A DNA stretch of 64,000 bases from Longimicrobiales bacterium (GTDB lineage Bacteria; Gemmatimonadota; Gemmatimonadetes; Longimicrobiales; Gaopeijiaceae): the NCBI GenBank assembly GCA_951828585.1, contig OX639991.1, positions 3,442,576 to 3,506,575 on the forward strand, in the 5' to 3' direction. Made by a program: the position numbers and the translations under genes. Position 1 is the first letter of the stretch. Each line of letters starts with the position of its first letter. Shown in pieces: positions 31,298 to 33,840 of the stretch. Below the pieces are notes generated by a model that worked only from the letters and a program-made list of their open reading frames with translations, was not told where the DNA came from and made no database searches.

Positions 31298-31549
31298 ATG
31301 GCTCACAAGAAAGGCGTAGGGTCGTCTAGGAACGGACGCGACAGCAATCCAAATCGTTTGGGCGTAAAGCGTTACGCAGGTGAGAAGGTGTTGGCGGGGA
31401 ACATTCTGGTGCGTCAGCGGGGTACCCGTTTCCATCCGGGGAACAATGTGGGCCGGGGGCGGGACGATACCCTGTTCGCCAAGGCGAACGGTGTCGTGAA
31501 GTTCGAGAATCTGCGCCGGCGCCGGGTCGTTTCGGTCTACGCGGACTAG
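31298..31549 (+). CDS. rpmA: 50S ribosomal protein L27
   Basis: The 83-residue product has the classic N-terminus [17 protein letters not shown], which reaches the peptidyl-transferase centre, then RLGVKRY and the [13 protein letters not shown] core. It begins directly with MAHKK, so it has no cleavable N-terminal extension of the Firmicutes type. AGGAGG lies upstream of the ATG. A 469-bp gap with an apparent structured RNA follows. Confidence 0.97.
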
Positions 31550-31639
31550 GAATCGCCGCGCCTTCCAGGTCGGTTGAAGGACCGGATCCGACACCTCAGC
31601 CGAAAAAAAAGCTTGCGGTTTCGGAGTTGGTGTATTAAC

Positions 31640-32020
31640 GTAGTTGCCCCGAAGCGGAGGAGGCGGCCCGAAAGGGACGCAGCCGAAACGGAGGGGTCGG
31701 GCCTCGGAGAGGACCACGATGGGGGAAACCCCGGAAGGGCAGCCAGCCGAGGGTCGACGCGCCGAGGGGCGCCGGAGACGGCAAACCGAGGCGGGCGCGG
31801 AACCGGGTTTCGGCCGGAACCGCGACGGCTGCGGGGTCGCTGGAAGCAGCCGAAGTCCCCGGGAACGGGGGACGGCCCGAAAGGTGGAGACACCGGACGG
31901 GAGCAAGAGACGGGAGACCGGTCGCAGCACATGGCGGCGCCGAAACGGAGCCTTCCAACTCGCCAGCGAGACGAAGCCCCCGAGCGGGTGGTGTGCTGCC
32001 CGCCGGGGGCTTTCTCTGTT
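31640..32020 (+). ncRNA. Candidate large structured non-coding RNA, family unknown
   Basis: There is no convincing reading frame here, but the plus strand can fold into many short GC stems closed by GNRA tetraloops: CCC-GAAA-GGG (31667-31676), GGGG-GAAA-CCCC (31721-31732), GCCG-GAGA-CGGC (31771-31782), a 7-bp stem with GGAA (31855-31873), GGTG-GAGA-CACC (31883-31894) and CGG-GAGA-CCG (31911-31920). There is also GGCTGC/GCAGCC (31827-31851) and CTCG-CCAG-CGAG (31959-31970). On the minus strand these loops would not be GNRA, so the sense strand is plus. A TATTAA box (31633-31638) after an A-tract may be its promoter, and a rho-independent terminator closes it. I looked for hallmark sequences of RNase P RNA, tmRNA, 6S RNA and SRP RNA and found none. 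It could also be a long structured 3' UTR of rplU-rpmA. Confidence 0.5.
31976..32020 (+). terminator. Rho-independent terminator
   Basis: GCCCCC-GA-GCGGG (31976-31988) pairs with CCCGC-C-GGGGGC (31999-32010) around a 10-nt loop, followed by TTTCTCTGTT. The T-rich tract is on the plus-strand side only, so it ends rightward transcription, from the candidate RNA or the rpmA operon. It overlaps the end of the convergent chorismate mutase gene by two bases. Confidence 0.8.
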
Positions 32021-32387
32021 AACCCCTCCCGGGACGTGACGGCTTGCCGGACCGTGCGAGCGGCGGGGATTGCTCCTTCCGGGCCGAAGCCATGATCTGC
32101 CAAATCAGGTTCCGCACCAATTCCTCGTCCACGCCGGCACTCCTGGCCAGCGTTGCCGCCTTGCGCACCACGACCGCCTCTCGCTTGGGGTCGGTTACCT
32201 GCCGCCCGAGGCGCGCCTTGAGAGCCCCGACTTCCCGCACCAGGTCCTTCCGCCGGGCCAGGACGCGAACCAACTCCTGATCACAGTCCAGAATTTCCTC
32301 GCGCAGGCGCTCGAGATCGACGGTGCCGGAGGGCGAACCTCTGCCCGGGGGCGAAGTTACCTGTAACCTATGGTCGTTGTCAGACAT
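32019..32387 (-). CDS. Chorismate mutase, AroQ class
   Basis: The 122-residue all-helical protein follows the AroQ pattern: LERLREEILDCDQELVRVLARRKDLVREVGALKARLG, then the DPKREAVVVRKA helix and a last helix ending VRNLIWQIMASA. The Arg, Lys, Asp and Glu positions that hold chorismate are recognisable. It converts chorismate to prephenate for Phe and Tyr synthesis. ATG 32387 is chosen because it overlaps the symporter stop by 8 bases. A Pro/Arg tail follows the fold. It is a free-standing domain without prephenate dehydratase or dehydrogenase. Confidence 0.85.
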   Translation of the reverse strand: MSDNDHRLQVTSPPGRGSPSGTVDLERLREEILDCDQELVRVLARRKDLVREVGALKARLGRQVTDPKREAVVVRKAATLARSAGVDEELVRNLIWQIMASARKEQSPPLARSGKPSRPGRG

Positions 32388-33840
32388 GTAGATAACCCTC
32401 CACGTGCTCGCCATCCTGGGGCGTTCCACGCAGGCTGACGACCAGAAGAACCGGGATGTGGGCGATCAGCCCCAGAATGCCTTCGTGCATGCCCAGCGGT
32501 TTCAGCTCCGGCATCAGGAAGAAGAAGACCGATACGGCCGAACCCACGAGCAACCCGGAGACGACACCGGCGGTCGTGGCCCGTCTCCAGTACAGCGCCG
32601 CGAGCATGGCCGGCATGTACTGGCAGATGATCCCGTAGGACGCCAGCAGCAGGTCCACCAGCGAGAAGCCCTCCACCAGCGCGAAGAGATAGGCCAGGGC
32701 GCCGACCAGGACCACCAGGATTCGCATCAGCAGCCGCTGTCCCTTGTCCGAGAGCTTCCAGAACGGCTGCACGCCGTCTTCCACGACCACCGACGCCGCG
32801 CCGTGGAGCAGTGCGTCGCCCGTGGACATCGACGCGGACAGCGCCCCGGCGCAGAAGAGGCCCACGACCAGCGCGGGCAGTTCCGAACGAAGGACCAGGA
32901 AGGGAAGGATGAAATCGGCCTGGTCGGGCGATTCCGGAAAGAGAACGCCCGCGAAGCCGATCAGGAAAACCGGGATCAGGAAGAGCTGGAAGGTGGGGAA
33001 GAGGATGACGGTCCGGCGGATGATCTTGTCGTTCCTGGCCGTGTACGCCTTCATGAAGAGGTGGGGCCACATGGTGACTCCGATGGCGCTCGCCAGGATC
33101 GCGGTGGAGTACCCTCCCCAGCTCCACGGCTCGCCGCTTCCGGTCAGGCCCGGGAGCGACAGAAGCTCGGGGCGTTCCGCCATGATCTGCTCGAACATCG
33201 GACCCACGCCGCCGTAGAGGTGATAGGGTAGATAGATCCCCAGCGCCCACGCGATGACCAGCATGACGACGCCCTGGAAGGTGTTGGTCCAGCCGACCGC
33301 TGAAACGCCGCTGGAGAGCACGTACACGAGCACGATCGCATACGCCACCGCCGCGCCCGCCGCCAACGGAATCCGCCCGTCGGTCACCGCTTCGATCACG
33401 ATGCCCGCCCCTCGCATCTGGATGGTCACGTAGGGGACGAAGGCGGCCAGGGTCAACACGGCCAGCATGGCGGAGAGCCCCCGCGACGGAAAGCGTCCCA
33501 CCAGCAGCTGCGCCTGGGTCACGAACCCGAAGCGGCGTCCCAGTGCGGCGACCTTGGGGCCCATCGCGTACCACGGAGCCATGCCCAGGACACCGTAGGT
33601 GAGGATGTAGAAGGCGGCTGCCCCGCGAGAGTAGGCCCACCCCGGTCCGCCCAGAAAGGCGAAGGCCGAAAAGACGGTGGCCCCGGTGATGAAGTACATG
33701 ACCAGGAGGCCGAAGTCGCGGTCGCCGGCCACGTACCCCTGGACGCTCCGTGACGCGCGCCGGCCGGCCATGAGCCCGACGCCGAGGGTGACCGCCAGGT
33801 AGGCGAAGATGATGACGGTGATCAGCGATGACTTGTCCAT
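32380..33840 (-). CDS. Sodium:solute symporter family permease
   Basis: The 486-residue product has about 13 hydrophobic helices. SSS-family signatures include ADRDFG-like GDRDFG after TM1, VFSAFAFLGGPGWAY, the long GLFCAGALSASMSTGDALLHGAASVV in the sodium-binding helix region, and YWRRAT near the end. With a DUF3311 partner upstream, the closest functional analogy is the MctP-type monocarboxylate permeases, but the substrate is not decided by sequence. Its ATG shares one base with the stop of the DUF3311 gene, and its end overlaps the chorismate mutase start. Confidence 0.9.
   Translation of the reverse strand: MDKSSLITVIIFAYLAVTLGVGLMAGRRASRSVQGYVAGDRDFGLLVMYFITGATVFSAFAFLGGPGWAYSRGAAAFYILTYGVLGMAPWYAMGPKVAALGRRFGFVTQAQLLVGRFPSRGLSAMLAVLTLAAFVPYVTIQMRGAGIVIEAVTDGRIPLAAGAAVAYAIVLVYVLSSGVSAVGWTNTFQGVVMLVIAWALGIYLPYHLYGGVGPMFEQIMAERPELLSLPGLTGSGEPWSWGGYSTAILASAIGVTMWPHLFMKAYTARNDKIIRRTVILFPTFQLFLIPVFLIGFAGVLFPESPDQADFILPFLVLRSELPALVVGLFCAGALSASMSTGDALLHGAASVVVEDGVQPFWKLSDKGQRLLMRILVVLVGALAYLFALVEGFSLVDLLLASYGIICQYMPAMLAALYWRRATTAGVVSGLLVGSAVSVFFFLMPELKPLGMHEGILGLIAHIPVLLVVSLRGTPQDGEHVEGYLHV

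Follow-up and report, generated by a model that had tools for sequence, protein, structure and literature searches.

A probable stand-alone RNA of about 370 nt from an undescribed family of structured non-coding RNAs in Gemmatimonadota

The stretch of Longimicrobiales DNA analysed here (the window, 64,000 nucleotides) very probably contains, in the gap between rpmA and a chorismate-mutase-like gene convergent with it, an autonomous gene whose product, a stable structural and non-coding RNA of ~370 nt, would belong to an undescribed RNA family of the Gemmatimonadota; on the strength of sequence comparisons, we put the probability of this reading at about 0.8. We regard it as secure that the element belongs to a family of structured RNAs. 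The best reading is that it is a stand-alone RNA, which would be transcribed from its own gene and act in trans.

RESULTS

Gene boundaries

The gap of 469 bp between rpmA and the chorismate-mutase-like gene had been described in a first-pass annotation as gene-free and as rich in plus-strand stems with GNRA loops, and every stem named there exists. The locus contains the following features.

31298-31549, plus strand: rpmA (context), upstream neighbour of the RNA in the window's genus only
31613-31641, plus strand: predicted promoter, with the -35 hexamer TTGCGG at 31613-31618, a 17-nt spacer and the -10 hexamer TAACGT at 31636-31641
31642-32020, plus strand: RNA gene, predicted to start at about 31645-31649 and to end at about 32013-32020; matched over its full length by covariance model R1 (338 bits)
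32019-32429, minus strand: chorismate-mutase-like gene (context), convergent with the RNA

GNRA-capped hairpins were counted by script (loops closed by at least three GC or at least four pairs), and seven of them were found on the plus strand and one on the minus strand of 31642-32020. As 2000 dinucleotide shuffles of this region gave a mean of 0.75 such hairpins and a single shuffle reached seven, the set is indeed hard to get by chance; in a scan of the 64 kb window in 50-nt steps, seven were seen in only four overlapping placements on the plus strand. Among 20 relatives, the hairpins of 31668-31675, 31721-31732 and 31772-31781 again had GNRA-type caps, and those of 31856-31872 and 31882-31895 largely did so; CGG-GAGA-CCG (31911-31920) retains the stem without the GNRA loop. 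The single-sequence fold was only mildly better than those of shuffles (z = -2.0), and the case is therefore carried by comparative evidence.

A DNA search of 59 related genomes gave 20 more genomes of the genus with the element, 19 of which were taken as loci. Its length is nearly constant in 20 genomes (369-379 nt). The DNA upstream of it cannot be aligned within the genus and conservation starts at TTGCG, which, together with TAnnnT at a fixed 17-nt spacing, was present in 20 of 20 genus loci, the spacer and the upstream DNA being variable. The predicted RNA start lies some 5-8 nt after TAnnnT; the first-pass annotation had expected a 5' end near 31645. Each window hexamer matches the E. 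coli consensus in three of six positions and the scanner makes no call, so that the case for a promoter is made by the conservation of these weak hexamers and by the better promoters of other sites: copies lying between a pyruvate-dehydrogenase (pdh) cluster and rnhA-carA are preceded by TTGAC-N17-TATnnT (e.g. TTGACA-N17-TATCAT in L137), and another group of copies by TTGACG-N17-CAnnnT. A sigma-70-like promoter frame is predicted to drive the RNA. In L012-L020, about half of the genus, the spacer between rpmA and the RNA promoter was longer and full of degenerate ACGGGGGTGnnC-type repeats.

At the 3' end, the genus loci have a hairpin with a nearly invariant loop, followed by a T-rich tail. 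The stem of the rho-independent terminator proposed earlier was confirmed; its U-tract in the window is poor, and a consensus scanner makes no call there. Open frames are present in the element because the plus strand is U-poor. A coding gene on either strand was rejected, since the indels in the genus alignment are mostly of 1-2 nt, a strong argument against a conserved protein, and the lengths drift. Conservation within the genus, the element's own promoter and terminator and these short indels together indicated a non-coding RNA gene of ~370 nt, and the locus agrees with a stand-alone gene of this kind also in its conserved structure and in its lack of a conserved ORF.

Helices and long-range pairings

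The fold consists of about ten helices and three long-range pairings (K1-K3).

31664-31679, plus strand: P1a, hairpin CCC-GAAA-GGG of the 5' domain; 97.5% of cells paired in 20 sequences, loop GNRA in nearly all
31699-31704/31710-31715, plus strand: P2, helix of the 5' domain; only 74% paired and less certain
31721-31732, plus strand: P3, hairpin GGGG-GAAA-CCCC of the 5' domain; its GNRA-type cap recurs in the genus
31760-31793, plus strand: P4, helix with a GCCG-GAGA-CGGC tip; compared within the genus
31796-31824, plus strand: P5, helix 31796-31800/31820-31824; its loop carries the K3 strand UUCGGC
31826-31852, plus strand: P6, hairpin 31826-31832/31846-31852 with the most conserved loop, RGGUCGCUGG (72 copies)
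31855-31873, plus strand: P7, hairpin with a GGAA loop in the window and GGAA, GAGA or GGGA loops in relatives
31877-31900, plus strand: P8, helix with a GGTG-GAGA-CACC tip (GNRA); compared within genus and family
31911-31920, plus strand: P9, short stem CGG-GAGA-CCG; 96.7% paired in the genus, not kept in all genera
31921-31938, plus strand: P10, hairpin whose loop AGCACAUG carries the K2 strand; both sides changed in 5 of 5 pairs in the family
31946-31957, plus strand: P11, short stem; 98.3% paired in the genus
31973-32013, plus strand: T, terminator hairpin, whose loop UGUGC belongs to the fold
31837-31843 with 31963-31969, plus strand: K1, pseudoknot of UCGCUGG (P6 loop) with CCAGCGA, by covariation
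31927-31931 with 31992-31996, plus strand: K2, kissing loop of GCACA (P10 loop) with UGUGC (terminator loop), by covariation
31809-31814 with 31939-31944, plus strand: K3, pseudoknot of UUCGGC (P5 loop) with GCCGAA (after P10), by covariation

The core structure, which comprises 62 pairs in 11 helices, was 93.1% paired in 23 diverse sequences, compared with 40-48% when the partners were slid, and both sides had changed in 36 of the 62 pairs against 13.8 in shuffles, none of the 500 shuffles being as high. The structured RNA proposed at first from a single sequence thus withstood comparison with relatives, in which it is conserved and its stems strongly covary. P5 was 100% paired in the genus, with both sides changed in two of its five pairs (four of five in the family), and P6 was 99.4% paired, with both sides changed in six of seven pairs in the family. 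Within the genus, P1a, P3 and P4 with their GNRA tips are well kept and P2 less so; outside it the 5' domain differs and is poorly conserved. The most conserved unpaired positions lie in the P6 loop (RGGU) and in the junction after P8 (GGG..AAG). A local H-type pseudoknot GCGAC/GUCGC around P6 was discarded, because it clashes with P5 (compensatory CACGG/CCGUG) and with the better supported K1, and the RNAalifold consensus, in which P5 was mixed with the 3' strand, was replaced.

The long-range pairings were evaluated in an alignment of 72 copies that was fitted to the nested helices only, K1-K3 being absent from the aligning model. Taken alone, K1-K3 were 92.5% paired (17-61% in slid versions), with both sides changed in 16 of 18 pairs against 7.9 in shuffles, and when each strand's own partner was compared with swapped partners, none of 2000 permutations matched as well for any of the three. 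Among the variants were UCGCCGGC/GCCGGCGA (L119), CGUCGG/CCGACG (L107) and UCGUUGGC/GCCAACGA (L115) for K1; GCAUCU/AGAUGC (L124), UCAAGU/ACUUGA (L130) and UUACGGU/GCCGUAA (L116) for K2; and UUCAGG/CCUGAA (L049), GUCUGAC/GUCAGAC (L044) and CUUGGA/UCCAAG (L045) for K3. Because K2 pairs the P10 loop with the terminator loop, the terminator hairpin belongs structurally to the RNA.

Two copies of the word GCCGAAACGGAG are present in the RNA, at 31682-31693 and 31939-31950 of the window; only the second is conserved, and it takes part in K3. The internal repeat GCCGAAACGG at 31682 was rejected as the K3 partner, as it lacks conservation in the genus; it is the copy at 31939 that covaries.

Proposed architecture and possible roles

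We propose that transcription would run from a sigma-70-type promoter to an intrinsic terminator, both belonging to the RNA gene itself. The 3' two thirds would form a compact core made of P5-P8, P10 and the terminator hairpin, in which K1 would lock the P6 loop to the strand before the terminator, K3 would lock the P5 loop to the strand after P10, and the kissing of P10 with the terminator hairpin through K2 would fold the 3' end into the core. To this core would be attached a 5' domain that is rich in GNRA loops and more variable. The RNA would act in trans and would not be essential everywhere.

Our guess at its role, the likeliest one if a little short of even odds, is that of a folded scaffold binding one or more proteins as an RNP, in which K2 would also protect the 3' end. 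The likeness to OLE, ROOL and GOLLD (PMC12286853) makes a scaffold, or an RNA-only assembly via K2, the most plausible roles, and we would favour the protein-binding scaffold over the assembly.

An RNA-only homo-oligomer, in which covarying loops, at least those of K2, would pair between molecules as in OLE, ROOL and GOLLD, seems rather unlikely. K2 is a loop-loop kissing pair that covaries copy by copy, ornate RNAs of the OLE, ROOL and GOLLD type use conserved intermolecular kissing loops (PMC12286853), and no protein-coding neighbour recurs, all of which would suit such a particle. However, K1 and K3 are well placed as intramolecular pseudoknots; covariation, blind to the distinction, would fit intramolecular as well as intermolecular pairing of K2, and the window RNA is shorter than OLE, ROOL and GOLLD. 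It is improbable that this GNRA-rich, multi-pseudoknot RNA is a ribozyme catalysing, for example, the processing of itself or of other RNAs: the compact pseudoknotted core and the highly conserved unpaired nucleotides of the P6 loop and the P8-P9 junction would be in keeping with one, but it has no similarity to catalytic Rfam families, no intron-like insertion in genes was seen, and the terminator at its end is intact. A GNRA-rich fold, called typical of large ribozyme-like RNAs in the first-pass annotation, does not by itself point to catalysis, and of the six caps one is not conserved.

Gene neighbourhood

The rplU and rpmA genes precede the element in every genus locus with flanks present. 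Beyond the RNA and in the opposite orientation, nearly all genus loci have an SSS permease, usually together with the chorismate-mutase gene; the latter was not found in L005 and L006, and in L005 the permease lies directly after the RNA. Neither rplU, rpmA nor any other neighbour of the window locus was beside the RNA in the other genera examined. The RNA also occupies a second syntenic site, between the pyruvate-dehydrogenase cluster and rnhA (minus strand)-carA (gene names read from translations), in 12 genomes of two families. Apart from conserved housekeeping synteny, no neighbour family recurred across 60 loci. At sites other than rpmA the downstream gene may be on either strand, being on that of the RNA in roughly half, and these genes are unrelated to each other (lipid kinase-like, ABC transporter, SDR, SRAP and others, read from translations).

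This arrangement makes it very unlikely that the RNA is a cis-acting element, whether a long structured 3' UTR of rpmA or a riboswitch or attenuator whose terminator controls the next gene. A position directly after rpmA, a terminator at the end and a co-oriented next gene at about half of the non-rpmA sites are what such an element would have, but the RNA has its own conserved promoter, rpmA is not adjacent in other genera, and, instead of leading co-oriented and related genes, it faces a convergent gene in the genus and mixed, unrelated ones elsewhere. Since no neighbour recurs and the downstream gene may be on either strand, a riboswitch, an attenuator, a 3' UTR and a TnpB-type guide are all unlikely. 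Of the two interpretations first offered, a new RNA class or a long structured 3' UTR, the former is favoured by the absence of an Rfam match, the strong covariation and the conserved promoter immediately upstream.

Known RNA families

The window RNA had no gathering-level match in Rfam 15 (4227 families, including OLE, ROOL, GOLLD, 6S, RNase P and tmRNA), and even at E<=10 there was no match worth noting, the best being P4 sRNA (14.2 bits, E 0.26); in the loci of 14 relatives no Rfam match overlapped the RNA. The RNase P RNA and the tmRNA of the genome are located elsewhere (C1:2084128 and C1:4048564), so that the window RNA is neither of them, and an SRP candidate, below the cut-off, also lies elsewhere (C1:3754221). 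The first-pass annotation had likewise found no core motifs of RNase P, tmRNA, 6S or SRP RNA in the element. At G000:C1:841724-843038, away from the true tmRNA, there is a cluster of short partial matches to the tmRNA model, perhaps a tRNA cluster.

The 6S model (RF00013) matched nothing anywhere in the genome, which would suit an RNA that had taken the place of a housekeeping RNA, for example 6S, in this lineage. This is hardly credible for an RNA that is patchily present, has several paralogues per genome and folds with multiple pseudoknots, unlike the long rod with a central bubble of 6S, in a genome whose RNase P RNA, tmRNA and SRP candidate sit at other positions. No description of the window RNA was found in the literature, searched without the 2017 catalogue of 224 candidate RNAs; on the basis of Rfam 15, which holds many published classes, and of this literature, that catalogue aside, the family has probably not been described before.

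Distribution and copies

R1, the full-length covariance model, found relatives in other genera of the family, and R2, a core model from P5 to the terminator, gave matches in 43 of the order's 61 genera (E<=0.01). Of 395 genomes sampled from the phylum, 122 matched at E<=0.001 and 93 at E<=1e-9, all of them carrying the label of the window's class or a closer one. As chance matches of R2 reach ~26 bits in unrelated genomes, the stricter cut (E<=1e-9) was used and weak matches were set aside. The genome sampling was dominated by MAGs. A degenerate pattern over the P6 hairpin was also scanned against 84,980 species; its hosts were Gemmatimonadota, including MAGs called Longimicrobiales, Gemmatimonadales and Gemmatimonas, and Roseisolibacter sp. 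H3M3-2, not labelled as a MAG, has a divergent copy in which P6 is present, as are strands able to form K1 and K3. Presence outside the phylum (Thioclava, Mycobacterium, Microbispora, Planctomycetota and others) was rejected, these being chance matches to a 27-nt pattern without the rest of the RNA, and no viral contig matched the degenerate P6 pattern.

Across the class the copies usually lie away from rpmA. Several genomes bear 2-4 of them, with core identities mostly of 47-72% and occasionally of 82-93%, indicating an old paralogous family and not a recent repeat. Diverged paralogues within one genome suggest specialised copies, and the patchy presence implies a function that is dispensable or lineage-specific.

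Some copies have particular locations. Two in G037 (L095: 5001-5247 and 6474-6729), in the same orientation and 57% identical, are ~1.2 kb apart. Many are at contig ends or within a few hundred bases of them (L091, L092, L096, L103 and L116, in G055, G043, G116 and G297); GC-rich stable hairpins or further unseen copies could be behind this position, the known paralogues being too diverged to be assembly repeats. Two other copies (G215:C4:222840 and 246618) are 24 kb apart on a contig of 1.04 Mb, which may be a second replicon of this four-contig, 7.5 Mb genome, and a weaker third match is on another contig.

Several copies per genome, some of them at contig ends, would be in line with the guide RNA of a TnpB/IscB-type nuclease (omega-RNA or reRNA) or with part of another mobile element, but this is most improbable, as no nuclease or transposase family recurs beside the copies at the 60 loci, the copies are old (mostly ~50-60% identical), none was found in viral contigs with the pattern used, and two sites (after rpmA; pdh cluster/rnhA-carA) are kept in synteny.

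DISCUSSION

Non-coding RNAs that are both large and structured are rare, and several that have been characterised did something unexpected. The RNA described here represents a new family without an Rfam relative, spread over one bacterial class, in which three long-range contacts are backed by pair-by-pair covariation. It is possible, if not the likeliest outcome, that it forms a functional class of its own among large bacterial RNAs, being either a ribozyme of a new type or a particle that self-assembles from RNA only, with specialised paralogues present in one phylum and with its terminator hairpin in the mature fold. Most of what is known of the host class comes from genomes of sponge, soil and groundwater origin. 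The structural constraints, the copy in Roseisolibacter sp. H3M3-2 and the paralogues within the same genome make both structure and function directly testable.

Terminator-containing riboswitches resemble the window RNA in having a structured domain that ends in an intrinsic terminator and several copies per genome; the window RNA is unlike them in having its own promoter and a downstream gene that is often convergent and of inconsistent type. RNase P RNA and tmRNA are similar to it in size, with multiple pseudoknots and GNRA loops, but show no similarity to it. ROOL and GOLLD are encoded by phages or prophages near tRNA islands, whereas the window RNA has no Rfam match and no viral-contig match to the pattern used; pseudoknots and kissing loops are common to all three. 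ROOL and GOLLD are ornate RNAs with such pseudoknots and kissing loops, and no protein partner of theirs is known (PMC12286853). Compared with OLE RNA, the window RNA differs in having no Rfam match, no associated protein gene and multiple paralogues. OLE is the longer RNA and works with known membrane proteins. Like OLE, the window RNA is a bacterial RNA that is large, structured and stand-alone, with long-range contacts that are conserved and a lineage-restricted distribution.
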